The notes under the pieces were generated by a model. That model was not told the origin of the DNA. It ran no database searches and saw only the letters and a list, made by a program, of their open reading frames with translations. From assembly GCA_019359315.1 (NCBI GenBank), contig JAHHHO010000005.1, positions 93,738 through 157,737 of the forward strand: a stretch of DNA of 64,000 bases, written 5' to 3'. Made by a program: the position numbers and the translations under genes. This document shows, one piece after another, positions 37,211 through 64,000 of this stretch (position 1 is its first letter; every line of letters begins with the position of its first letter). The DNA is from Myxacorys californica WJT36-NPBG1 (GTDB lineage: Bacteria; Cyanobacteriota; Cyanobacteriia; Leptolyngbyales; Leptolyngbyaceae).

Positions 37211-37927
37211 CTACTTGTACTGAATGGGCAGCGATCGCTCAGTCATCGCTTTAATCATTCGATAACACTCACAGGACGCTTCTTCTAAATGTTCGCGATC
37301 CACTATAGTAATGTTGCCTCGGTGATAGCGAATGAGTCCTGCCTGTTGCAGTGTTCCCGCCGCGATCGTCACACCTGCCCTCCGGGTGCCGAGCATATGA
37401 GAAATAAATTCTTGAGTGAGCGGGAGGTCATTAGAATTGATGCGATCGCTGACCATCAGCAGCCACCGCGCTAACCGTTCTTCAATGCTATGGCGGCGGA
37501 AGCAGGCTGCCCCCTGTGCTACCTGAAAAAATAGAGTCTGCATGTACCTTAGCAGCAGGCGTTGCAGCGGTCCTCCTCGCTCAAACTCTGCCTTAAAGGG
37601 TGCTGCTGCCATGCGGATCCCACTATCGGGGGACTGAACGACCATTTCGTATTGCGCGATCGGGTCGCCTAAAAACACCTCAACGCCTAGCACGCCTTCG
37701 TTTCCGATGATCCCGACTTCAATACTCGCTCCGTCTTCTAGAATCGTGACTAATGAAATGATCCCTTGGTTAGGGAAATAGACATAGTCGATCTTGTCAC
37801 CAGGGTGATAGAGAGTTTTCTTTAGAGGTAGATCAACAACTTCTAAATGTGGCAGAATACGCTGATATTCCTCGTCGGGTAAGGCGGCGAGCAGTTGATT
37901 CTTAGATGGACCGAAATTCTGCAACAA
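37211..37927 (-). CDS. Crp/Fnr-family transcriptional regulator
   Basis: This 238-residue protein has an N-terminal cNMP-fold sensor (KIDYVYFPNQGIISLVTILEDG) and a C-terminal winged helix (LTQEFISHMLGTRRAGVTIAA). The phosphate-binding Arg of cAMP-binding Crp is not evident, so the ligand is unknown. The TTG start is supported by AGGAG 6 bases upstream, which is also kept in the duplicate copy at 63.57 kb. Its 5' part, leader and the end of the next gene are duplicated in inverted orientation at 63385-63877. Confidence 0.87.
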   Translation of the reverse strand: MLQNFGPSKNQLLAALPDEEYQRILPHLEVVDLPLKKTLYHPGDKIDYVYFPNQGIISLVTILEDGASIEVGIIGNEGVLGVEVFLGDPIAQYEMVVQSPDSGIRMAAAPFKAEFERGGPLQRLLLRYMQTLFFQVAQGAACFRRHSIEERLARWLLMVSDRINSNDLPLTQEFISHMLGTRRAGVTIAAGTLQQAGLIRYHRGNITIVDREHLEEASCECYRMIKAMTERSLPIQYK

Positions 37928-44102: not shown

Positions 44103-44252
44103 CCCTCTTTCATCACTTTGGTAGGAGCAAAAGCTGAAAGCTTTGCTGCACCTGCGTTTTGCTCTTTTGTCATCTTCGAGCCGTCAAAATAGGAAACTCG
44201 CACTGGAGCTAGGTTTCAGAGTTCACTTCAGCGAGAGTGATGAAAGAGGGAT
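44101..44252. mobile_element. MITE-like element with 17-bp terminal inverted repeats
   Basis: ATCCCTCTTTCATCACT at 44101-44117 is matched by its exact inverse at 44236-44252. The 118 bases between have no coding frame. Size and structure suit a non-autonomous transposon. It lies exactly between the truncated IS5 and the decayed integrase segment; no clear target duplication is visible. Confidence 0.65.
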
Positions 44253-44596
44253 AAAAGGATCACAGCTACTGATCGACCTACTGATCACCTACTGATCGAC
44301 CCCCCTGTTATTGACAATGGCTTAACAGAAGTTAACGTTGGTGACATAGTAATTGCTACCAGTACGGCTACGTGGTTTTGGTATAAAAGTGACAAGCTTC
44401 CCTACGTGAAATCGAGGATAAGAGCTTTGTCGAAATCAACACCTTGAGCGAGCCACTGTTCTTTGAATTGATTGAACCCAGTAAGGTGCTAGAGATTAAG
44501 ACTGATCGCGTCAGGGTGAGGCACCAGAAAACAGGTAGAACAAGTGTTTTCTATCTTAAAGATGTGAGCGTGCTGGAGAAAGCCCATCATGACTAG
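44253..44596 (+). pseudogene. C-terminal remnant of the element helicase gene (inverted copy)
   Basis: The sequence is about 90% identical to the last ~340 bases of the helicase gene at 57963-59843, in opposite orientation (EVNVGDIVIATSTATWF..., PLFFELIEPSKVLEIKTDR). A one-base deletion near 44405 breaks the frame. It keeps three ACTGATC motifs and the CATCATGACTAG overlap with the integrase start. Confidence 0.85.
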
Positions 44597-45428
44597 CTGC
44601 CAAGAGTGGATCGATAAATTTCGTGAGGACTATCTACAGCGCGGTAGTAGTGAAACGACCTGGAAGACTGACTATCAGAAGATTCTCAACCGTTTACCCG
44701 CGCAAGCGACGCTGTAAGCGTCGTTGCTGCATCAGACGGTGTTAGAAACTCCGGTCAATACCAAAACTCGCAAGCGATGCTGCATGGTCACAGGTGCGAT
44801 CGCGCGGTTCGCAGGCATTGACTACGACCCCTCTCCCTATGCAGGCAAGTACTCACCGAAAGCCGTGCAGCCGCGTGATTTGCCCTCTGATGCTGTAATT
44901 GCAGAGAACCACGATCGCTTGATTAACCTTGGGTGGAAGTGGGTTTATGGAATGATTGCCACGTATGGTTTACGTCCCCATGAGGTGTTCCGACTCAACC
45001 TAGAGGAAATTCAGAACGGGAATCCAATCGTCTTCGTAGGAGATAACACTAAAACGGGTTCGCGTCCGGTCTGGGCATTTCATCCTGAGTGGGTGGGTCA
45101 GTTCCGGCTCTGGGATGTGCAGATTCCACCCATCAAGCTGAATCGTCCCAACATCAACGTTGGGCATTCAGCCACAAGCTACTTTCGCGGGTTCGGTCTG
45201 CCCTTCCATCTCTATGATCTGCGACATGCCTACGCCATTCGCGCCACGCTCACCTACGGCATGGATTACAAGCTTGTGGCGAAGATGATGGGCCACAGCT
45301 ACCAAGTGCATGAGAATATCTATCACCGATGGCTGAATATGGATGTGTTTCAGAACGCCTATGACGCGGCGATCAACCGGAGCAATCGCCCACTTCCACC
45401 ATCTGTAGGCGCTTCAAATCCTGACTAA
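44589..45428 (+). pseudogene. Decayed tyrosine integrase, inverted copy
   Basis: The ATG at 44589 and the first 42 codons match the integrase at 57131-57970, then an in-frame TAA (44715-44717) interrupts at codon 43. After it the frame stays open to 45428 with all catalytic motifs (YGLRPHEVFRL, FHLYDLRHAYAIR, MMGHSYQVHENIYHRW). A downstream restart at TTG 44724 would lack the N-terminal arm-binding region. Most likely inactive. Confidence 0.85.
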
Positions 45429-45434
45429 ACAAAA

Positions 45435-45470
45435 AGGCTAGAAATGAGATTTGACTCTCATTTCTAGCCT
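45435..45470. terminator. Perfect 15-bp hairpin after the integrase copy
   Basis: AGGCTAGAAATGAGA pairs with TCTCATTTCTAGCCT over a 6-base loop. The same structure follows the other integrase at 57089-57126, so it belongs to the element. Confidence 0.75.
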
Positions 45471-45475
45471 CATGC

Positions 45476-45501
45476 TTGATATACCCCCAGGGGAATTCGA
45501 A
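45476..45501 (-). other. att-like copy of the tRNA-Glu 3' end
   Basis: On the minus strand this reads TTCGAATTCCCCTGGGGGTA plus TATCAA, identical over 26 bases to 57058-57083, the T-loop to 3' end of tRNA-Glu. The match stops exactly at the T-loop; the rest of the tRNA is absent, as expected for a recombination junction. Confidence 0.85.
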
Positions 45502-45650
45502 GCCACGACCATAGATTCAACTCTATGCTATGAGCTTTCAGATTCTGTCATCAGCGATCGTGGCTCTAGTCCGACCTTGGGTTGATAAATCTCGCGGGGT
45601 TGAACGCTTGGGGCTGTAATCGCCTTTGATTGCGGTTGCATTGAGGTCTG

Positions 45651-50046: not shown

Positions 50047-50075
50047 AAAGCCCTTTCTGGAAACGGAAGGGCTTT
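50047..50075. terminator. Hairpin before the unknown cluster
   Basis: AAAGCCCTT pairs with AAGGGCTTT, extended by two further pairs, with a 7-base loop. On the minus strand it is followed by TTTTA. Confidence 0.5.
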
Positions 50076-50100
50076 GATATCTAATGTTGCTAGGATTCCC

Positions 50101-50415
50101 ATGTCTACCGTCATTAATCTGTTGCATTTGCTTCTCCTCCTTTGGTCGGTCGGATGGCTCAAAACGTTCCTTGCCATCTGCCTCGTTCTGATTGGATTAC
50201 TCTTTCTCTACTGCCTACTCGCCGCCATTTTCTTTCCGACACATTCAACAGCTCATGGTGACGAGCACTCAGAACTGGTGAGGTTATGCGGTAATACTAA
50301 GACAGCCAATCGGCTGATCAAGCATATTCAGTCACAACACCCCAAAAAATCACTGAAGTGGTGTTGCGACAAAGCGCTTTGGGATTTGCAGCGCGATCGG
50401 CGTCGAGGCTTGTGA
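50101..50415 (+). CDS. Small membrane protein
   Basis: 104 residues from ATG 50101: two closely spaced hydrophobic segments (NLLHLLLLLWSVGWLKTFLA and VLIGLLFLYCLLAAIFF) are followed by a basic soluble tail (NTKTANRLIKHIQSQHPKKS, WDLQRDRRRGL). No named family. It is the first gene of an accessory cluster with no recognised products. Confidence 0.6.
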   Translation: MSTVINLLHLLLLLWSVGWLKTFLAICLVLIGLLFLYCLLAAIFFPTHSTAHGDEHSELVRLCGNTKTANRLIKHIQSQHPKKSLKWCCDKALWDLQRDRRRGL

Positions 50416-50489
50416 GGGCTCAATCAGGTGATCCAATTTTTCAGTGTGCGGCTACTCTTGATACATCTGTTTACCAGTAGCTACCGAAA

Positions 50490-50852
50490 ATGACCCAACC
50501 CGTGATCACGTCCTACTTTGGCTCGACAGCAACGGTGATTGATTCAACCCAATCGATCACAGCTTCCCCCACGGCCCCAGTTCTAATAATTCCGTTCGAT
50601 GCCCTCGCCAGCGCTGGCCTAGATGATGCAGCCAGTATGAGCGATCCAGATAAGGTGTTTGGGGCCATTCTCAAACTGGCCCGTGTCTTCACTCAGGCTG
50701 ACACCGATGAAGAGAGTGGGATCGAAGTGGGAACCCCACGAAAAACCTTTGTGACCCGTGGCAACACTCAGAAGATAGGCCACGACTACAGTGTGACTGT
50801 TTACACAGCCGACACAACGCCCGCAGAATTTGACCCTGATAGTGTGGTCTAG
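50490..50852 (+). CDS. Hypothetical protein of the 50-53 kb cluster
   Basis: This 120-residue soluble protein starts with a Thr/Ser/Ala-rich stretch (STATVIDSTQSITASPTAP) and has a beta-type C-terminus (TQKIGHDYSVTVYTAD). It ends two bases before the ATG of the next gene, indicating co-translation. No domain recognised. The low-complexity, beta-rich look is compatible with a structural or surface protein, but that is a guess. Confidence 0.6.
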   Translation: MTQPVITSYFGSTATVIDSTQSITASPTAPVLIIPFDALASAGLDDAASMSDPDKVFGAILKLARVFTQADTDEESGIEVGTPRKTFVTRGNTQKIGHDYSVTVYTADTTPAEFDPDSVV

Positions 50853-50854
50853 GC

Positions 50855-51583
50855 ATGGCAAAACAGCTAGTCTATCAAGGTTGCCAGGGACAAGACGCGG
50901 CCCTGGTGACGTGGACTTCTCAAAATTTCGAGCTGCCGAACACCTACAAGACCATCTTCACCCCGATCAAAGTGTTCATCGCCCAGCCTGAGCAGGGGGG
51001 CGAGCTCAGCAGATACAACTATTACAGCTTTTTCTATCGCTATCGAATTAAGGAATACAACCAAGCGGTAGGGGGGCCAAATACAGAGTGGAGAGACACG
51101 GATGGTGACGGAAACCCGCTAATTGGTGAGCTTTTAGCTTACGGTGCGCCCACGGCCCCCTATCTCAAATTGCAGGGAACCGATCCTAACGGCATCACCT
51201 CTTACATGTGGACAACACTTGTGAGAGGTGTCACCTATGGGCAAACCTACGACGAAGTGACAGAGCAGTGGATACCGTATGAGGAGAACTACGACGAAGA
51301 GATCGAATTTATTCAAAGCTATTCGCAGCCCATCTATAGCGGTCAAACTTACGGTGAAGTGGAAATATTAGAATCGTATGTGCTGGATGAGAACGGCAAT
51401 AGAATCAATTTAGGTGGAGAAGTAAACAATACTACATGGCAGTTAATAGTAGCAGAAATAGTAGCAGAAACATACGAAGAGGTATTTAAGCTTAGTTTTT
51501 CATCACAATCTCAAGGAATATTTGTAGACTGCGACCAATGCGCAAACAATTGTCTAAAGGTCACTAGTGACGATAAAAAGTGA
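50855..51583 (+). CDS. Hypothetical Tyr/acid-rich protein of the 50-53 kb cluster
   Basis: This acidic 242-residue protein is rich in Tyr (SRYNYYSFFYRYRIKEY, GQTYDEV, SGQTYGEVEILESYV) and predicted mainly beta, with a repeated GQTY-E-V motif near residues 130 and 170. The C-terminus has a Cys cluster (CDQCANNC). The last third is more A/T-rich than neighbouring chromosome, suggesting foreign origin. No family recognised. Confidence 0.6.
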   Translation: MAKQLVYQGCQGQDAALVTWTSQNFELPNTYKTIFTPIKVFIAQPEQGGELSRYNYYSFFYRYRIKEYNQAVGGPNTEWRDTDGDGNPLIGELLAYGAPTAPYLKLQGTDPNGITSYMWTTLVRGVTYGQTYDEVTEQWIPYEENYDEEIEFIQSYSQPIYSGQTYGEVEILESYVLDENGNRINLGGEVNNTTWQLIVAEIVAETYEEVFKLSFSSQSQGIFVDCDQCANNCLKVTSDDKK

Positions 51584-51635
51584 TTCACTTGTGTATGTAG
51601 AGATTGACACCTAAAGCGAATAGAGATAGAAATAC

Positions 51636-53010
51636 ATGTCGAATAACGGCTTAACGCTTCAAGAGTTAAGTGATAATATACGTCAGAGAATGACGGGTGA
51701 TTTTGAGGCAACTAAAAAAGCGTTTGAGAAAATATACAAGAAAAGTGGTGTAGGGGACAACCTAGACATAATCAGAAAAAATCTAGAAAATCAAATCAAG
51801 CCAGTTACAGATGTAGTCAACGATCAAAAGGTAAAGGAATTTGTTCAAAAACCAGACAGTTTCTTTAAGAAGTGGATTATCGAACCGATTACTAAAACGT
51901 TTGATAATTTGATTCTAAAACCAGTTGCAAAGTCGATCGATGAAATCGCCTTCAAACCACTGTCCAGGACGTTAAACGACGGGTTTAGAGCAGCAGATCG
52001 CGTGTTATCCGGTTGGCTTCGTCCCATCAACAAAGCTGTTGATTCTGCGGGGCAATACTTACGCAAAATTGTAGGGGATTTGAGAGGCTTAGAGCGTACC
52101 GCTTCTCGAACGTTGGGCAGTGTCGCAGACACCTCTAGAAGTGTTGGCAAAATGGCAGAGGATGTCATCCCAGCCGTTCGTGTTTTGGGCAAAATTTCAG
52201 GAACGCTTCTGAAGGTGCTACCGATCATCGGCCTGGTGTTCGATATGCTTTCAGCGAACGAGATATTTAAGACGATTGAGGCCCAAAAGACGCAGCTTAT
52301 AGCCTTGAATCAGCAGGGGAGAGACAGCAAAGCGGCCTATGATTTGATGAAAATTCAGAATGATAGACTCGCCGTTCTAGCACGCGAGCAAACCGCAATT
52401 AAAGAAACGTTACGATGATTCAACTACACAGAATTAGATTTGAGACTAGATCGCATTGAAGGGCAGCTCCGCAATCTCGGATCTGGTAGCCAGAATGGGC
52501 AGAAAGTAGACCTTTCTCCCTTAGACGGCAAGCTAGGGGTGATTCAAAGCCAACTTGATAAGCTCAGCACTTCAAGCGGTCAGAAGGTCGATCTAAGCCC
52601 AATTCAGGGGCAATTGACCGACCTTAAAGCATCTGTGGCTCGAATCCCTACGACGGCTGGGAAAGTTGATTTAAGGCCAATTCAGGGGCAATTGACCAAC
52701 CTTAAGAGTTCCATTGCCAAGCTTCCCACCAGTGCCACGGGTCAGAAAGTAGATCTCTCCCCAATTCAAAGCCAACTGACCGACCTTAAGAGTTCTATTT
52801 CCAGACTTCCAACCGGTGCGCCAAAGGTAGACCTCTCCCCAATTCAGAGCCAACTGACCGACCTTAAAGCCTCGATCGCTTGAATTCCAACCACTCAGGC
52901 GGTCATTCCCAAACCTGACTTTTCATCTGTACTGCAAGCGATCAGCGCTGTCTCAACCCTACTACAGCCATTGGCAGGCATTCCGCCGACGCTCGCGAGG
53001 ATTGCGACTA
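51636..53010 (+). pseudogene. Long helical/coiled-coil protein gene broken by two TGA codons and IS5
   Basis: One continuous frame runs from ATG 51636 to the IS5 insertion at 53011, interrupted only by TGA at 52416-52418 and TGA at 52881-52883. Part 1 (260 residues) is amphipathic and helical, with repeated VAKSIDEIAFKPLSRTLND-type units and one hydrophobic stretch (LKVLPIIGLVFDMLSA). Part 2 contains five 26-28-residue repeats beginning KVDLSPIQ. In the repeats the second TGA replaces an Arg CGA (ASVARIPTT versus ASIA*IPTT). It resembles long structural or tail-fibre-like proteins, without a named domain. Confidence 0.65.
52503..52901 (+). repeat. Five imperfect 78-84-bp repeats encoding KVDLSPIQ units
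   Basis: Units begin near 52503, 52584, 52662, 52746 and 52824. Each encodes KVDLxPIQxQLTxLKxSIA and a short linker, giving a coiled-coil-like periodic protein. Confidence 0.8.
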
Positions 53011-57004: not shown

Positions 57005-57077
57005 GCCCCCATCGTCTAGAGGCCTAGGACACCTCCCTTTCACGGAGGCGACGGGGATTCGAATTCCCCTGGGGGTA
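57005..57077 (+). tRNA. trnE-UUC: tRNA-Glu (anticodon TTC)
   Basis: A 73-nt cloverleaf: acceptor GCCCCCA / TGGGGGT, anticodon stem CCTCC / GGAGG with loop CTTTCAC (anticodon TTC at 57039-57041), T-arm GGGGA TTCGAAT TCCCC, discriminator A. No CCA is encoded. The anticodon and the Glu-type D-arm identify it. In cyanobacteria this tRNA also feeds tetrapyrrole synthesis. Its 3' end is the attachment site of the adjacent element. Confidence 0.97.
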
Positions 57078-57083
57078 TATCAA
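57058..57083 (+). other. Attachment site (att) at the tRNA-Glu 3' end
   Basis: The 26 bases from the T-loop through the tRNA end are identical to 45476-45501 on the opposite strand. An integrase gene begins 48 bases further on, the classic layout of tRNA-targeting integrative elements. Confidence 0.85.
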
Positions 57084-57126
57084 AAAGCAAGGCTAGAAGC
57101 GAGAGTAGAATCTCATTTCTAGCCTT
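57082..57126 (-). terminator. Terminator of the integrase gene
   Basis: A 16-bp stem with one mismatch (AAGGCTAGAAGCGAGA / TCTCATTTCTAGCCTT) is followed, on the minus strand, by GCTTTTTG. It is homologous to 45435-45470. Confidence 0.8.
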
Positions 57127-57130
57127 CTTT

Positions 57131-57970
57131 TTATTGGGTTTTTGAAGTATCTACAGACGGTGGAAATGGGCGATCGCTTCGATTAATCGCCGCGTCATAG
57201 GCCGTCTGAAACACATCCAAATTCAGCCATCGGTGATAAATCTCTTCATGCACCTGGTAGCTGTGGCCCATCATCTTGGCTACGAGTTTGTAATCCATGC
57301 CGTAGGTTAGTGTGGCTCGAATGGCATAGGAGTGTCGCAGGTCGTAGAGATGGAACGGTAGCCCAAACCCACGAAAGTAACTGGTAGCTGAATGGCCCAC
57401 GTCGATATTGGGCCGGTTGAGCTTAATTCGGGGGAGCTGCACATCCCAGAGCCGAAACTCTGTAAACCATTCGGGATGAAAGGCCCAAACCGAACGCGAA
57501 CCCGTCTTCGTGTTGTCCCCCACAAAGACGATTGGATTCCCCCGCTGAATTTCCTCTAGGTTGAGCCTAAACACTTCATGCGGACGCAGGCCGTAGGTTG
57601 CAATCATGCCGTAAACCCACTTCCATCCTAGATTCGTCAGTTGACTATAGTTTTCTGCGATCGCAGTGTCAGAGGGCAGATCACGCGGCTGCACTGCTTT
57701 GGGTGAGTACTTGCCAGCATAGGGGGATGGGTCGTACTGGATGCCTGCGAACCGGGCGATCGCACCTGTGACCATACAGCAGCGCTTGCGAGTTTTGGTA
57801 TTGACCGGAGTATCAATCACCGTTTGATGCAGCAGCGCTGCCGTTAACGTTGCTTGCGCGGGTAAACGATTCAGAATCTTCTGATACTCAGTCTTCCAAG
57901 TCGTTTCGCTGCTACCACGCTGTAGATAGTCCTCACGGAATTTATCGATCCACTCTTGGCAGCTAGTCAT
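57131..57970 (-). CDS. Tyrosine recombinase/integrase of the tRNA-Glu element
   Basis: This protein has 279 residues from ATG 57970. Catalytic motifs are visible: first Arg in TYGLRPHEVFRL, the HxxR-like box FHLYDLRHSYAIR, MMGHSYQVH, and the Tyr nucleophile in EEIYHRW. The N-terminal ~50 residues (EWIDKFREDYLQRGSSETTW) form a SAM-like/arm-binding region. The start overlaps the helicase stop by 8 bases (ATGACTAG), so the two are translationally coupled. It would integrate and excise the element at the tRNA-Glu 3' end. A related decayed copy lies at 44589-45428. Confidence 0.9.
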   Translation of the reverse strand: MTSCQEWIDKFREDYLQRGSSETTWKTEYQKILNRLPAQATLTAALLHQTVIDTPVNTKTRKRCCMVTGAIARFAGIQYDPSPYAGKYSPKAVQPRDLPSDTAIAENYSQLTNLGWKWVYGMIATYGLRPHEVFRLNLEEIQRGNPIVFVGDNTKTGSRSVWAFHPEWFTEFRLWDVQLPRIKLNRPNIDVGHSATSYFRGFGLPFHLYDLRHSYAIRATLTYGMDYKLVAKMMGHSYQVHEEIYHRWLNLDVFQTAYDAAINRSDRPFPPSVDTSKTQ

Positions 57971-59843
57971 GATGGGCTTTCTCCAGCACGCTGACATCTT
58001 TGAGGTAGAAGACACTCGTTCTACCTGTCTTCTGATGCCTGACTCTGACGCGATCGGTCTTGATCTCCAGCACCTTACTGGGTTCGATTAACTCGAAGAA
58101 CAGTGGCTCACTCAAGGTGTTGATTTCAACAAAGCTCTTATCCTTGACTTCACGGTAGGGCAGTTTATCACTTTTATACCGGAACCACGTAGCCGTACTG
58201 GTAGCAATTACTATGTCGCCAACGTTAACTTCTGTTAAGTCATTGTCAATAACAGGGGGGTCGATCAGTAGTCGATCAGTAGGTCGATCAGTAGGTCGAT
58301 CAGTAGCTACGATCCTTTTATCTACTCCGTTGGTTGCCTCTTGAATCGTGCTACTGATCGACTGATCGGCCAAATTCGCAATTCCTGATAGTGAAAAATT
58401 CGCGTTTTGGTCGATCAGTCGATCAGTAGAGGCTGAAACGTCCATTTGGCCTCCGTTGGAGCTACTGATCGCGTACTGATCGCGTACTGATCGACCCTTA
58501 TCCGCGATCGTTATAGGTCCACAGTGATAGAGCATTGCGCGGCTGTGTGCCTTTGGACACCGCAGTACTAAACCTTTAGCCCACATCTCCTTGAGAACCT
58601 TGCGAACGGTGTTCTTATTTAGTTGCAGGTAGTGGGCGATCTCTTCTGCCTCAAACCCAACTCCGAAATTCCCGTCTTCGTTCAGCCACAACTCAATCCG
58701 CTTCTCGGTGTGAGCGGTTTCTTCGTTCTCTTCTCCTTCTTGACCGACGTAGGCAAAGGTGAAGGTTTCCTCATCGAATTGGAACTTATAGCGCCCTGGC
58801 GGCCGTCCCATGCGGGTTTTCTGCACTCGAATGATGCGTTCCCCGCTCTGCTCATCGGTCACACCCATGCCCCAAACTTCTGAGGCGGAGTTGTAGAGGG
58901 CTTTGGTTCCGCGTGATTGCCCGTCGGAGTTGGAGTGGTGAACCACGGCAAAGGTGCAGCCGTAGCGATCTCCTAAGTCGTTTAGTTGCAGCATGAAACG
59001 AGCGTATTCCGTGTCATTCTCGCTGATTAGGGTATTGCGATTGATGGCCGTGACTGAATCGATCATGCAGAATCTCACCGGGTCGCCAGTGTCCTGGTAT
59101 TGCTTCAGATAGGCTTCTAGTCGCGGCATGTTCTCGACTTGCCAGCCGGGGACGAGCTGCACGGGATGAGATTTCTCCAGGTCTCGAATTTTGAGGCGTT
59201 CCCTAGTGACGATTACCGGCTCATCGGATTGCAGGATTAGGACTCTGCCTTGAGCTACAGGGTAGCCATTCCACGGCTGCCCTTTGACGATGCACTCGAT
59301 TAGCTCGTAAATCAGTAGGGACTTGCCCGTGCCACCGAGAGCATGGAGTAGGAGAACGATGCCTTTGGGAATCCAGCCATTGATAATCCATTCTTTGACT
59401 TGGACACAAAGCTCGTCGAGCTGATCCATATCGTAAGCAACGAATGGAGCTTGGTTGATTAGTGCCTTGTGATAGCTGTTCATCATGGCAGACTGCGGAA
59501 TCTTGAGCCGCTTGGCGAGCTTGGCAAGTTTGAATTCTCGTAGCCCGGCATCGACGATCGCTTCAATTTCACGAATGCTTTCCACCATCCTCGTGAACTC
59601 TCGTTCTTCCAGGTCTACGCCTAAACGGTCTTTCATTAAGACCTCAGCGACCTGCTCCATGACTTCGAGCGGAATGTCGTAGCTTCTGCCGATTTGAGCG
59701 AGTTCTTTTCTGGCAAGCTCTGGAGAAGTGAGGTTGAGAGCGGTCGATTCTAAAACTCTGTCCTCAAAGCGAGCACGAGTTGTCGCCTCCAAGTCAGCGA
59801 GAGCATCTGACTTGGAAGTATGCTTGGAAAAGTTTGATATCAT
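57963..59843 (-). CDS. RecA/RepA-fold helicase or replication ATPase of the integrative element
   Basis: 626 residues. Residues ~1-130 are helical, possibly a degenerate primase/helicase-linker region. Residues ~155-370 are a RecA-type ATPase: Walker A LLHALGGTGKSLLIYEL, ILQSDEP, Walker B FCMIDSVTAINRN, sensor FAVVHHSNSDGQSRGTKALY. Around 385-450 is a winged helix (FEAEEIAHYLQLNKNTVRKVLKEM). The segment ~465-560 is low complexity with TDRPTDRPTDRLLIDPP, encoded by iteron-like DNA, and the C-terminal ~85 residues are a beta domain shared with the copy at 44.3 kb. It resembles hexameric RepA/AAA_25 helicases of plasmids and phage satellites. Confidence 0.85.
   Translation of the reverse strand: MISNFSKHTSKSDALADLEATTRARFEDRVLESTALNLTSPELARKELAQIGRSYDIPLEVMEQVAEVLMKDRLGVDLEEREFTRMVESIREIEAIVDAGLREFKLAKLAKRLKIPQSAMMNSYHKALINQAPFVAYDMDQLDELCVQVKEWIINGWIPKGIVLLLHALGGTGKSLLIYELIECIVKGQPWNGYPVAQGRVLILQSDEPVIVTRERLKIRDLEKSHPVQLVPGWQVENMPRLEAYLKQYQDTGDPVRFCMIDSVTAINRNTLISENDTEYARFMLQLNDLGDRYGCTFAVVHHSNSDGQSRGTKALYNSASEVWGMGVTDEQSGERIIRVQKTRMGRPPGRYKFQFDEETFTFAYVGQEGEENEETAHTEKRIELWLNEDGNFGVGFEAEEIAHYLQLNKNTVRKVLKEMWAKGLVLRCPKAHSRAMLYHCGPITIADKGRSVRDQYAISSSNGGQMDVSASTDRLIDQNANFSLSGIANLADQSISSTIQEATNGVDKRIVATDRPTDRPTDRLLIDPPVIDNDLTEVNVGDIVIATSTATWFRYKSDKLPYREVKDKSFVEINTLSEPLFFELIEPSKVLEIKTDRVRVRHQKTGRTSVFYLKDVSVLEKAHHD
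58262..58493. repeat. Cluster of eleven ACTGATCG / CGATCAGT motifs inside the helicase gene
   Basis: The octamer or its inverse occurs near 58262, 58273, 58285, 58297, 58352, 58361, 58412, 58420, 58463, 58474 and 58485. Spacings are mostly 8-12 bases, in alternating orientation groups. The remnant at 44.27 kb keeps part of the array. Such density is typical of iterons bound by a replication initiator. Confidence 0.75.
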
Positions 59844-59925
59844 TGGCTTGACAGTCTGATGTTGGTAGATTCCACGATGTTTTGTTGGTCACATCATGGA
59901 AGGGTGTACACGGATGGACATATTC

Positions 59926-59966
59926 AAAAAAAGGGGGAAGGGTGCTTGCGACACTCTTTCCCCTCT
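59926..59966 (-). terminator. Terminator between the small gene and the helicase gene
   Basis: On the minus strand GGGGAAAGAGTG pairs imperfectly with CACCCTTCCCC over a 7-base loop, followed by a run of eight Ts. It lies just downstream of the gene ending at 59974. Confidence 0.7.
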
Positions 59967-59973
59967 TGTGTTT

Positions 59974-60246
59974 TTATTCGTCGTCGAGATGAACGGCGAT
60001 CGCTTTAAGTAATTTGATTCGACCGTTGTATGAGAGGCGATTCACGGAGGCAGCGAGCGCGCTGGGAATCGGTAGATGTCGATCGGTCTCGTCTTGGGCG
60101 AGTTCAAAGAGAAGTTTCCATCGCTGACCGTCGCTTAGTTGCTGGAGGTCGGAGCCGTACTCTTCGGTGATCACGTCGAGGATTGCTGAGTCTCTGGCTA
60201 GGTTGTGCTTTCGATCTGCATACCGTTCGTCATATTGAGTCTGCAT
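59974..60246 (-). CDS. Small hypothetical protein of the integrative element
   Basis: 90 residues from ATG 60246 (an ATG at 60345 would add a Cys-rich MFSPINPEPSCPCCLNS front). It is charged and helical: RYADRKHNLARDSAILDVI, RWKLLFELAQDETDRH, RIKLLKAIAVHLDDE. No domain recognised. It is divergent from the Xre gene and shares its palindromic control region, so it may be repressed by it, like an early gene of a phage. Confidence 0.6.
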   Translation of the reverse strand: MQTQYDERYADRKHNLARDSAILDVITEEYGSDLQQLSDGQRWKLLFELAQDETDRHLPIPSALAASVNRLSYNGRIKLLKAIAVHLDDE

Positions 60247-60395
60247 GGTGTTGGTTGTTGGTTGTGTTTCAGTTTCTAGCCACTGAAAGGGGTGAGAATT
60301 GAGGCAACAAGGGCAGGAAGGTTCTGGATTGATGGGAGAAAACATCAGTACCGTTTGCTTGACCCCTGCTCACAAAAGCCTCTGACTCCGTGAAA

Positions 60396-60411
60396 CGCCT
60401 AGAAATAGGCG
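60396..60411 (+). ncRNA. GAAA-tetraloop hairpin in the element control region
   Basis: CGCCTA / TAGGCG closes a GAAA tetraloop, followed by GGTTTTG; outer arms CGTGAAAC (60389-60396) and GTTTCACG (60433-60440) are also inverse. It may be a leader structure or terminator, or an extra regulator site. No evidence for an independent RNA gene. Confidence 0.35.
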
Positions 60412-60446
60412 GGTTTTGTCCTGTCTACCCATGTTTCACGTCCCTC

Positions 60447-60513
60447 CGTAAAACGTTTTACGAGTAACTTTCACAAGATAGCGTAAAACGTTTTACGGGT
60501 AAATGTTTTTACG
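60447..60513. promoter_or_regulatory. Operator array of the Xre regulator: two perfect 16-bp palindromes and one degenerate copy
   Basis: CGTAAAACGTTTTACG occurs at 60447-60462 and 60482-60497, with a weaker copy (GGTAAATGTTTTTACG) at 60498-60513 immediately before the Xre start codon. Spacing between the first two is 35 bases. This is a typical lambda-like divergent operator layout. Confidence 0.85.
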
Positions 60514-60518
60514 ATAAG

Positions 60519-60770
60519 ATGCAGGAGGAAGAACGTAAGAGGTCTCCACTGGTGCCACTTCGAGAAAAAGCCGGTCTTACCCAAGAAGCTTTAGCAGAGC
60601 GTCTTGGAGTAACTGATCACACTATTCGGAATTGGGAAAAGGGTAGGGCAGAGCCAAGGCTGACGATTAAGCAGACCAAGGCTTTATGCGCTGCCCTCAA
60701 ATGCACCTTGGACGATTTGCCCGACAGTTTTTGTCCAGAAATGAAGAACGCTGAAACTCAAATGGCATGA
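60519..60770 (+). CDS. Xre-family helix-turn-helix regulator
   Basis: This 83-residue protein is little more than the HTH_3 domain: LREKAGLTQEALAERLGVTDHTIRNWEKGRAEP. The ATG lies 5 bases after the last operator and has no Shine-Dalgarno, so the mRNA may be leaderless. It most likely represses itself and the divergent small gene through the palindromes, controlling the state of the integrative element. Confidence 0.85.
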   Translation: MQEEERKRSPLVPLREKAGLTQEALAERLGVTDHTIRNWEKGRAEPRLTIKQTKALCAALKCTLDDLPDSFCPEMKNAETQMA

Positions 60771-60798
60771 GGTTCAGCGTTCGATCACTACTTAATTG

Positions 60799-60828
60799 TT
60801 AAGGAGGTGAGATTGAAAACTTTATAGA
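60799..60828 (+). promoter_or_regulatory. Very strong Shine-Dalgarno followed by a mini-ORF
   Basis: AAGGAGGTGA at 60799-60808 is a full match to the anti-Shine-Dalgarno region, but the frames following it (GTG or TTG starts at 60805/60811) reach TAG at 60823 after only 4-6 codons (LKTL). It could be a leader peptide or ribosome standby/attenuation site for the downstream genes. Confidence 0.45.
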
Positions 60829-60923
60829 GCCGAGCGGAAGCAGACACTTCCCCCGGCAGCGCTCCGTAGTTCTGTTACCACTACAGAGAATTAAATTATG
60901 CATCTTCTAATTTCATTTCTAAC

Positions 60924-60966
60924 AAAAGAGCGATCGCACCCTGGTAGCAGTGCGATCGCTCTTTTT
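60924..60966. terminator. Perfect 16-bp hairpin, intrinsic terminator
   Basis: AAAAGAGCGATCGCAC pairs with GTGCGATCGCTCTTTT over a 10-base loop and is flanked by A-run and T-run, so it can stop transcription in both directions. It contains two HIP1 octamers. It lies 25 bases before the next start codon. Confidence 0.85.
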
Positions 60967-60990
60967 CGTTCATTTATCACTAGTAACATC

Positions 60991-61302
60991 ATGCCAAACA
61001 TTGATAAGCATCGCTCGCCGCCACAGTACCAGTGGCAAACCGCGCGGCCTCATGATTTCCCCACTTACAACCATGCGGGGAAGGACTACCACGTTATCCC
61101 TACCGAGGTTTTCAACCGGATGCAAGCCGAGAAGATCGATCGAACCTGGTTAGCCGTTGGTGTTGGTGGACTCCTGATCGCCGGTGTAACGGCAATCATC
61201 AGCAGCAAAATCGCGGCCCCCGCTCCTACAGTCGTTGAGAAGCCAATGGTTGTAGAAAGGCAAATCGTAGTACCCACCCAATGTTTAGCGTTCTGTAAAT
61301 AA
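60991..61302 (+). CDS. Small single-span membrane protein of the element
   Basis: 103 residues from ATG 60991; the frame is open upstream but crosses the terminator. A soluble N-terminus (HRSPPQYQWQTARPHDFP) is followed by one membrane span (WLAVGVGGLLIAGVTAIISS) and an Ala/Pro/Val-rich tail ending in two Cys. First of four closely spaced plus-strand genes. No family recognised. Confidence 0.65.
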   Translation: MPNIDKHRSPPQYQWQTARPHDFPTYNHAGKDYHVIPTEVFNRMQAEKIDRTWLAVGVGGLLIAGVTAIISSKIAAPAPTVVEKPMVVERQIVVPTQCLAFCK

Positions 61303-61313
61303 GAGGTAATTCA

Positions 61314-61799
61314 ATGAGATTAGGTCAAACGAGAAACGGTACAAGCGGCAAAGTTGGGGGAATGGCTCCTAACGATGTGATGCAGGTTGTAAGCGGTGCT
61401 CCGACTCCCTGGAATCCTGGAGACAATAGCGAGATTAGAACCGAGCAAGTAATTTCAAAGCACCAAAACTTCACGACAAAGGAGGTCGATCAACTGCGAC
61501 TCAAGGCCGCAACTCGTAAGCGGCAATCGAAAACGAATGCTAAAGCCTACACCGCGCTGAAAGCGATCGAGACTGCCGATACTCGCGATCAGGTTGCATT
61601 CCGTGGCTATCAAACCGGCGTTGCTCGCGCTGTGGCTGCGAAGAAAGGGGCCGACGTGAACAAAGCGAAAACGCTCGCCGGCCTCACGCCGGTCTATGCC
61701 GGCATGGGCTACTCCTTGGGAGCTGCTCAGGATGAAGCGACGGTGAGAGTTCAAGAGCTGAAAGCGCTCCACACCGATGTAGATAAGCGGTGGAGATAA
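61314..61799 (+). CDS. Hypothetical basic protein of the element
   Basis: 161 residues, basic and Ala/Lys-rich, predicted helical (LKAATRKRQSKTNAKAYTAL, VARAVAAKKGADVNKAKTLA). The N-terminus is Gly/Asn-rich. AGAGGT lies 8 bases upstream of the ATG and the gene starts 11 bases after its neighbour. It could bind nucleic acid, from composition only. Confidence 0.65.
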   Translation: MRLGQTRNGTSGKVGGMAPNDVMQVVSGAPTPWNPGDNSEIRTEQVISKHQNFTTKEVDQLRLKAATRKRQSKTNAKAYTALKAIETADTRDQVAFRGYQTGVARAVAAKKGADVNKAKTLAGLTPVYAGMGYSLGAAQDEATVRVQELKALHTDVDKRWR

Positions 61800-61818
61800 C
61801 TTCTAGGAGAATTTAATC

Positions 61819-62088
61819 ATGTTTAAGATGGCTAGACTTTTAACCTTTGGCGGTTTGAGTCTAGCCATTAGTTCTTTTTTAGGGCTAATGGCTAGAAATC
61901 TCCCCCCACTCAGCATTGGGTTGTGGACTGTGTTTCTATTACTTGCTGCGCTCGTTTTTGTGGCCTACTTCGCCGGCCCCCTATTGGATCGCTATTTCGG
62001 ATGGGAAGAGGACACCACGCTAGGGATCGCGATCGGTATCGCCGGCACATACATTCTAGGGGGGGCTGTCGGATGGCTAATTTCCTGA
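61819..62088 (+). CDS. Small multi-span membrane protein of the element
   Basis: 89 residues with three hydrophobic segments (LLTFGGLSLAISSFLGLMA, GLWTVFLLLAALVFVAYFAG, IAIGIAGTYILGGAVGWLIS). AGGAG precedes the ATG. Its 3' end overlaps the next gene by 16 bases. The size recalls holins, but this is not established. Confidence 0.65.
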   Translation: MFKMARLLTFGGLSLAISSFLGLMARNLPPLSIGLWTVFLLLAALVFVAYFAGPLLDRYFGWEEDTTLGIAIGIAGTYILGGAVGWLIS

Positions 62089-62753
62089 AATGGTTGCCTC
62101 AAGAAAATTACGGTAAGCAGTGGGCCGTATCGTTTGGCCTCGGGTGCTTCACCTGGTTTTGTGCCGTTTGCTTTGTCGGTTCGCTTCCCCCCGGCTTGCA
62201 ACTGCTGACGATGTTTATCCCGCTAGTCTGTTTTATTGTGGCCGTAACACTGCTCCCAAAATGGCAAAAGGAAGGCCGGCGAGCTGATTTAGTCGATTCA
62301 CTGAAAGAGCGGGAATGGAATAGTCAAGTGATGGGCCGGCATCAAGTCAACATGGCGGCGATCGGTGTGGACTATGACCAAGAGTTGAAAGCGCTTGCTG
62401 AGCTGTATGCGCCACCCGCACCAACTGAACCGGCGAGCGGTCGTTACGCTGTCCCTCATGCGGGATTGCCCATCGCAGATCAGGCTAATTCTCTGCTCAA
62501 AATTCAACAAGAGGTGATGCAGTGCTGTGGGGATGTGGGATGGGCGCTGGTGGAATACATCACAGGAAAAGGTGCTCAATACTGTGAAGGAGAAGGATGG
62601 ATCTCGGTTGAGAAATTGCGGAGTAATTGGGGTAAACATTTCGGTCTCAACACCGAACATGCGAAGCAATTGCTAATCGCCTTAAGTAACATCCAGTTGG
62701 GCGAATGGCGCGATTCTTCCCTCAAGGAGTGGCGTCTTTTACTAACAGTTTGA
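62073..62753 (+). CDS. Membrane-anchored protein of the element
   Basis: 226 residues from ATG 62073, overlapping the previous gene by 16 bases. Two N-terminal spans (WAVSFGLGCFTWFCAVCFVG and LTMFIPLVCFIVAVTLL) precede a soluble domain with charged helices and a C-terminal winged-helix-like segment (GWISVEKLRSNWGKHFGLNTE). The longer upstream frame is only the shadow of the previous gene. No named family. Confidence 0.65.
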   Translation: MANFLKWLPQENYGKQWAVSFGLGCFTWFCAVCFVGSLPPGLQLLTMFIPLVCFIVAVTLLPKWQKEGRRADLVDSLKEREWNSQVMGRHQVNMAAIGVDYDQELKALAELYAPPAPTEPASGRYAVPHAGLPIADQANSLLKIQQEVMQCCGDVGWALVEYITGKGAQYCEGEGWISVEKLRSNWGKHFGLNTEHAKQLLIALSNIQLGEWRDSSLKEWRLLLTV

Positions 62754-62762
62754 ATCGTCGGT

Positions 62763-62870
62763 TTCGGCGTTTCGGCGTTTCGGCGTCCAATTCGGCACTC
62801 CCTAGGCCGATTGGACGCCGAAGCTCTACGCCGAAGGTTACGCCGAACTGACGCCGAAGGTTACGCCGAA
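62763..62870. repeat. Iteron-like cluster: three TTCGGCGT and five inverse ACGCCGAA octamers
   Basis: Direct copies are contiguous at 62763-62786; inverse copies are at 62815, 62828, 62840, 62851 and 62863. The centre forms a hairpin (CGGCGTCCAAT...ATTGGACGCCG). It lies between genes, unlike the first cluster in the helicase gene, and could be an origin or partition site of the element. Confidence 0.8.
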
Positions 62871-62909
62871 AATTCTGCCTCTCTACCTTTGGTTGTTTCA
62901 GCTATCAAC

Positions 62910-63197
62910 ATGAATCAACAACAAATGAGTGACCATCTGCCAAAACATTTATATCAACTCAATCAAAAGGTTCTCATTTTTCACAATGACAAACAACCGT
63001 GGACGGTGGGAAAAGTTGGCGAGATTGCAAGCCTCATAAATGAGCCTCACCCGTGGGATTATTGCGGTAATGAACCCTACTATTATGTTTTTGTGGATCA
63101 TTCCGAAGGCTCATCTTCTGGATGCGTTTTAATACAATCAGCACTAAAAGCTGTAGGCCACATTGATCTAACTGTTGAAACTGTTGGAGAAGAATAA
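62910..63197 (+). CDS. Small hypothetical protein after the iteron cluster
   Basis: 95 residues from ATG 62910; the frame is open through the repeats but that part is repeat-derived. A beta-rich domain is seen (QKVLIFHNDKQPWTVGKVGE, EPYYYVFVDHSEG) with an acidic C-terminus. No family recognised. Confidence 0.55.
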   Translation: MNQQQMSDHLPKHLYQLNQKVLIFHNDKQPWTVGKVGEIASLINEPHPWDYCGNEPYYYVFVDHSEGSSSGCVLIQSALKAVGHIDLTVETVGEE

Positions 63198-63568: not shown

Positions 63569-63877
63569 TTGTTGCAGAATTTCGGTCCATCTAAGAATCA
63601 ACTGCTCGCCGCCTTACCCGACGAGGAATATCAGCGCATTCTGCCACATTTAGAAGCGGTTGATCTCCCTCTAAAGAAAACTCTCTATGATCCTGGTGAC
63701 AAGATCGACTATGTCTATTTCCCTAACCAAGGGATCATTTCATTAGTCACGATTCTAGAAGACGGAGCGAGTGTTGAAAGTGGAATCATCGGAAAGGAAG
63801 GCGTGCTAGGCGTTGGGGTATTTCTAGGCGACCCGATCGCGCAACACCAAATGATGGTTCAATCTCCCGATAGTGGG
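63385..63877. repeat. Inverted duplicate of 37619-38111
   Basis: It contains the last codons of the alpha/beta hydrolase, the intergenic region and the first ~100 codons of the Crp/Fnr regulator, ending abruptly at an ISAs1-like insertion. Confidence 0.88.
63569..63877 (+). pseudogene. Truncated second copy of the Crp/Fnr regulator gene
   Basis: The first ~103 codons match the regulator at 37211-37927 with few substitutions (for example TLYDPGDK for TLYHPGDK). The TTG start and AGGAG site are kept. After PDSG the frame runs into transposon sequence, so the effector-domain end and DNA-binding domain are lost. Confidence 0.88.
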
Positions 63878-64000
63878 GCAGGGCTGATTTATTGCAAAAA
63901 GGAAAAGAGGCGACAAATATCGTGAGCAACTGCCCGGATGCCTTGAGTAATTGAGGCAAAGCCCTGCAATCGCAAAAGATTGAGCGCTATCGTGCGGAGA
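63878..64000 (-). mobile_element. ISAs1-like insertion sequence, 3' end (continues past the window)
   Basis: The junction after the Crp copy is CAGGGCTGATTTATT, a plausible terminal repeat. On the minus strand 64000-63889 encodes LRTIALNLLRLQGFASITQG and ends LFSFLQ then TAA, which matches the C-terminal end of ISAs1/H-repeat transposases from memory. Confidence 0.65.
63889..64000 (-). CDS. ISAs1-family transposase, C-terminal fragment (cut by window edge)
   Basis: The last 36 residues and TAA stop are visible (ALNLLRLQGF, GIRAVAHDICRLFSF). The rest lies outside the window. Family assignment rests on this short stretch. Confidence 0.6.
   Translation of the reverse strand, partial: LRTIALNLLRLQGFASITQGIRAVAHDICRLFSFLQ

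Follow-up and report, generated by a model that had tools for sequence, protein, structure and literature searches.

The last part of a contig of the cyanobacterium Myxacorys californica WJT36-NPBG1 carries an integrase gene and a group of small genes beside a tRNA-Glu gene, which raises the question of what kind of element has settled there, how far it extends, and how it might pass between cells. The window analysed here is a stretch of 64,000 nucleotides forming the end of contig C103; its last base is also the last base of the contig (5.97-Mb genome, 128 contigs).

Genes and sites next to tRNA-Glu

The tRNA-Glu gene (TTC anticodon; 57005-57077, plus strand; ARAGORN and Rfam) is the presumed integration site, and its 3' end contains the 22-base left attachment core (57058-57079, plus strand), which has a right copy on contig C128 and counterparts as direct repeats in relatives. 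Beside it on the minus strand lies a tyrosine recombinase gene (57131-57970; the listed reading frame starts at 58015), which matches a PHROG integrase at E 5.7e-13 and Pfam PF00589 at E 2.5e-4, the latter being below that profile's cut-off. One end of this gene overlaps an end of the next minus-strand gene (57963-59843), which encodes an AAA_25 RecA-like helicase (PF13481, E 1.3e-23) with relatives in other genomes and a C-terminal part that weakly matches a winged helix; judging from the overlap, translation of integrase and helicase may be coupled. Further along are a divergent small gene (59974-60345, minus strand), with relatives on contig C33 of the same genome and weak ones in genomes G027 and G017, and an Xre-type regulator gene (60519-60770, plus strand; PF01381, E 2.4e-12), preceded by two exact copies of the 16-bp palindromic operator CGTAAAACGTTTTACG at 60447 and 60482 (60447-60497). 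This palindrome pair was not found upstream of the Xre genes in relatives.

Four tightly packed genes follow on the plus strand, three of them with predicted membrane spans: F06 (60898-61302; one span), present in seven loci including the window's; F07 (61314-61799), a basic protein without a span according to family grouping and span prediction; an 89-residue protein whose sequence contains 2-3 hydrophobic spans (61819-62088); and F08 (62073-62753; 226 residues), which has two spans and a soluble C-terminal part and belongs to an aligned family of 34 proteins including itself. Downstream lie an inverted repeat array (62763-62870) and a reading frame for a small acidic protein (62910-63197, plus strand). 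A first-pass annotation of this DNA had listed an integrase, a RepA/RecA-like helicase, an Xre regulator with operators, a divergent gene, four small genes and two iteron clusters; all are present, and its view that they form an integrated element with its own replication module at tRNA-Glu is well supported.

In the first iteron cluster, which lies within the helicase gene (58262-58493), ACTGATCG is repeated 11 times, where codon shuffling gives at most 3. Each of the 16 helicase genes examined contains comparable repeats: the leading 8-mer of a 450-bp stretch has 5-17 copies, and the maximum over 50 codon shuffles, which were scanned at a coarser step than the real genes, is 3-4. These repeats point to a likely replication origin within the helicase gene. 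The second cluster is the inverted array, with eight copies of CGCCGAA. An array lies 3' of the F08 stop codon in 7/7 copies, the window's included, with left motifs spaced about 8 bp apart, right motifs spaced 11-13 bp apart and a CCTAG-like centre; a generic array scan recovers six of the seven, and the array on C33 is degenerate. The motif differs from element to element (CGGCG, CGGTG, TCGGA), both arms changing together, and the array is predicted to fold stably as a single strand (z -3.1 to -7.8 relative to mononucleotide shuffles). We predict that it is the binding site of F08.

A probable continuation on a second contig

Close to the end of the window, the 5' half of a crp-like gene (63569-63878, plus strand) is interrupted by the end of an insertion sequence (63879-64000), which coincides with the contig end and has identical 101-base copies on contigs C100 and C7. 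The crp-like fragment has 93% identity to positions 1-309 of an intact copy at 37211-37927, and the end of C128, read in reverse, contains positions 300-717 of the same gene at 89% identity. Because the two halves have the 11 bases CGATAGTGGGG in common, and because imperfect inverted ends of an insertion sequence (17 bp, 88%) adjoin both of them, we infer that C103 adjoins C128 in the genome and that the assembly was split there by a repeated insertion sequence. The two crp-like genes of the window are paralogues; the split one lies within the element.

C128 also carries the right att, a 22-mer with one mismatch at G000:C128:64334-64355, beside an integrase remnant and the same host genes that adjoin the Myxacorys almedinensis (G027) element on its right. 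The direct att copy to be looked for beyond position 64000 was thus found, but on another contig and by way of the proposed link. With the contigs joined, the element would measure 6,923 + 15,435 = 22,358 bases, to which the unread stretch of the insertion sequence must be added, hence at least 22.4 kb, and would include a second gene module on C128; the self-contained unit of about 6 kb originally described would then be one part of a longer element whose conserved module lies outside the window. Since an insertion sequence sits inside it, the element may be inactive in this genome. Near attR in locus L005 we also noted a 1121-residue protein without a clear Pfam match (L005:10341-13706), adjoining a pentapeptide-repeat-like protein.

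Signs of serial entry at the tRNA

Elsewhere in the window the 26-base att recurs once, inverted and with two mismatches (45480-45505); 100 shuffles gave a mean of 0.00 matches. It belongs to a second stretch of element-like DNA (44250-45585, plus strand), in which the end of a helicase gene, an integrase, the att and a right-end flank shared with C128 form an attP-like junction, the layout expected of a circular form. The window also holds the remnant of a structural-like module (50074-52883, plus strand), recognised by family assignment (F13, F32, F33 and a broken F23) and by 75.9% DNA identity to C128 over 2.6 kb. Because integrase fragments lie just outside attR in G019, G027, G029 and C128, the tRNA site appears to have been entered by elements in series. 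A tyrosine recombinase beside a tRNA and direct att repeats at both ends, as in tRNA-integrating elements, are present here, the right att depending on the proposed contig link. At the level of sequence, there is strong support for an integrated element whose site has been entered more than once. Evidence bearing on a circle comprises the fossil attP-like junction and circular plasmid relatives, described below.

Relatives in other genomes

Helicase relatives occur in nine and F08 relatives in six of 42 genomes of the same order, counting its own genome each time; a same-genus relative is found in M. almedinensis. At E 1e-60 the helicase is present in 30 of 388 cyanobacterial genomes, a count that omits G019, whose helicase is longer. 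A second direct copy of the tRNA end is present in 5/12 other loci, at tRNA-Glu in G019, G027 and G029 and at tRNA-Met in G018 and G035a, and is absent within the available stretch in the remaining seven (G035b, G015, C33, C128 taken alone, G017a, G017b and G022). Recurrence next to tRNA-Glu, which the first reading had proposed as a check, is therefore borne out in three genomes. The five att-bounded relatives span 13.8-16.3 kb and have exact direct repeats of 44-388 bp. Genome G017 carries two copies of the element, with no tRNA near either.

The M. californica genome itself contains a further set of helicase, integrase and small genes, on C33 and adjoining tRNA-Met (L041, L042); its helicase is longer (819 residues) with a zinc-binding-primase-like N-terminus, and its integrase is different. 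A separate observation concerns a 9,027-bp contig of LEGE 13415 (L013), whose coverage of 812.71 would fit a free form present in many copies; it ends within a tandem repeat on one side and within the integrase gene on the other.

A conserved six-gene module

Around F11, a protein of 272 residues, genes recur in the order F05 or F57 (about 100 residues), F12 (700-950), F11, F14 (180), F09 (90) and F10 (150), followed by fibre-like genes. In 41 F11 loci, profiles detect F12 in 39, F14 in 36, F09 in 33, F10 in 32, and F05 or F57 in 30; the 41 loci also served to build the profiles, and several of them are truncated by contig ends. F11 was found in nine of 15 helicase loci, and F11, F14, F05 or F57 in 14, figures that give no unbiased estimate of co-occurrence because the loci were selected through helicase or F11 matches. 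Across the class, F11 is present in 30 of 160 genera, with 546 related proteins at E 1e-5 (the best 120 of the 546 being listed). The order of the module stays constant across loci of many families, with varying replication and partition genes around it.

The window's own element carries, on C128, the variant F32-F33-F23-F26, together with F14-, F09- and F10-like genes assigned by position and length. Two domain matches hint at adsorption or fibre proteins: F02 has an F5/8 type C domain (E 1.7e-7), and one F12 has collagen repeats (E 2e-15). Small tyrosine recombinases (183-209 residues) lie near the module start in L102, L105, L110 and nine other loci, mostly just upstream and divergent.

Searches against viruses and plasmids

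None of 41 F11, 35 F14 or 23 F05 members matches a PHROG at E 0.01. Scans of 2.9 million viral contigs of IMG/VR with helicase, F08, F11, F12 and F23 queries confirmed no relative. When 50,697 phage records were searched by tblastn, two F11 members and one F12 gave nothing, a third F11 member gave chance-level hits only (E 1 or more), and the helicase gave a 28% ATPase match. AlphaFold models of F11 (pLDDT 86) and F14 (pLDDT 88) had no match in the PDB at E 0.001. The element proteins scanned included no recognisable capsid, portal or packaging ATPase. Inoviruses are marked by a Zot-type morphogenesis ATPase and a small helical coat protein; Zot had no match among the window proteins and the part of the C128 genes scanned, nor had relaxase or conjugation Pfam profiles among ten window proteins. 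One finding that the first-pass annotation had named as telling against it was assignment of the genes to a known phage or ICE family whose structural genes lay immediately beyond the window: structural-like genes do lie there, but the core families match no known family searched.

Nostocales cyanobacterium HT-58-2 has two circular plasmids, both complete, on which matches were found. Profiles for F57, F12, F11, F14, F09 and F10 match pHT582-1 (37,028 bp), which also has a small integrase, ParB and a Prim-Pol protein; those for F12 and F11 match pHT582-2 (15,633 bp), which also encodes ParA, ParB and an integrase. Since the two plasmids carry module genes with other replication and partition sets, the replication genes evidently vary around the module. 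The plasmid state is thus represented by two relatives; the virion genes are putative. pHT582-2 also encodes a 1664-residue protein with a MACPF/perforin domain (E 2.1e-6; L152:9827-14821).

A plasmid-like virus or virus relative?

Based on these data we favour, with some reserve, the view that the window contains the tRNA-proximal part of an element of at least 22.4 kb, belonging to a family spread across cyanobacteria that is probably a plasmid-like virus or a relative of one. The att repeats, the integrase remnants of earlier insertions and the attP-like fossil junction suggest that the element enters the 3' end of the tRNA gene as a circle, a step that the integrase would catalyse. Replication is predicted to be started by the helicase, at the iterons within its own gene, and Xre, bound at its palindromes, likely holds the element silent. 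Together with the inverted array, the small membrane genes, four in number, make up an exchangeable cassette, in which F08 is predicted to anchor the circle at the membrane by way of the array. The second module, which we place on C128, would likely make a particle or surface structure for transfer between cells. Several observations count against this reading: absence from the viral contigs is odd for a free virus; helicase and F11 are sometimes apart, as the nine of 15 loci indicate; the scanned proteins gave no capsid, portal or packaging ATPase, and the element gave no terminase match; the well-modelled F11 and F14 match no solved structure; and seven of the 12 other loci showed no second direct att copy, the two G017 copies also lacking a nearby tRNA.

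More tentatively, the family could represent a new lineage of cyanobacterial viruses, 14-22 kb long, that are temperate and form plasmids; their particle would lack a recognisable capsid, portal and packaging ATPase and be built from a six-gene module that is found in many cyanobacterial families and has no counterpart in the virus collections searched. The marker protein F11 occurs in 54 of 388 cyanobacterial genomes, yet the family is without a match in those collections; some of the mobile DNA of cyanobacteria may have been overlooked because its particle or surface proteins are unlike any known ones. To our knowledge, prophages are seldom recognised in filamentous cyanobacteria.

Alternative readings: helper phages, plasmids and decay

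The large terminase profile (phrog_2) gave 22 matches in nine element-bearing genomes, none of them within an element. The window's genome has a strong match on another contig (G000:C23:30144-31400, E 2.9e-41), and matches at E 1e-17 or better lie elsewhere in G017, G035 and G019; the other five genomes give weak matches only (E 5.7e-5 or worse), and the profile also responds in 11 of 14 control genomes. The C23 match marks a possible helper prophage in the same genome. Because a terminase is matched elsewhere in the host genome and none within the element, the element could be a phage satellite, self-replicating and self-integrating, with tail or fibre proteins of its own, and packaged by a helper phage. 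This reading, which overlaps the one we prefer, strikes us as rather unlikely: in five of the nine genomes the terminase matches are weak, and the plasmid relatives have partition genes.

Those same plasmids, circular and carrying both partition and module genes, would suit an integrative plasmid whose spread relies on uptake or mobilisation and whose module builds a host-surface or secreted structure and no particle, as would the viral contig scans without a match. However, both plasmids are typed as non-mobilizable, and a constant module order amid varying replication and partition genes, with integrases alongside, is what one would expect of a module that itself spreads; we regard an integrative plasmid as a doubtful candidate. 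The first-pass annotation had left the choice between a satellite and an integrative plasmid, and each retains a modest chance, while a plasmid-like virus or virus relative is the reading we prefer.

A decaying island, its module the relic of an ordinary tailed prophage that has lost its head genes, seems very improbable to us: F23 (888 residues) matches a tail tape-measure PHROG through its repeat region (residues 285-422, E 2e-17), two further PHROGs without an assigned function and, within the repeats, Pfam Phage_Coat_B (E 1.2e-5), F26 of L012 and F02 weakly match a tape-measure (E 0.0025) and a 'virion structural protein' (E 0.0015), and broken module copies lie in the window, but the same order is kept in loci of many families, and F11, F14 and F05 are without a PHROG match.

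Comparison with known systems

Tycheposons of Prochlorococcus are cyanobacterial tRNA-integrated elements with tyrosine recombinases; the likeness is one of description alone, and the host groups differ. Phage satellites such as PICI and P4 carry an integrase, a regulator and a replication gene of their own. The present family resembles them, and PICMI, in these three features and in that no terminase was found in the element; it differs in having its own fibre-like and glycan-binding genes, and plasmid relatives with partition genes. Microcystis NIES-298 has a phage-like plasmid, P1, that resembles the present family in being cyanobacterial and in carrying an integrase as well as putative genes for tail and minor capsid proteins; its genes are reported to match Microcystis phages or uncultured phage contigs (PMC12510456), whereas the core proteins tested here match no phage. 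Phage-plasmids are also comparable, among them the small G8 satellite phage-plasmids from glacier viromes, which are under 16 kb and are described as devoid of phage structural genes, two members having a P4-like prim-pol (PMC4490671). The likeness extends to size, integrase, circular form, a Cro/CI-type regulator or primase in members and ParB in one member, and what sets the present family apart from G8 as described is its conserved six-gene module (PMC4490671).
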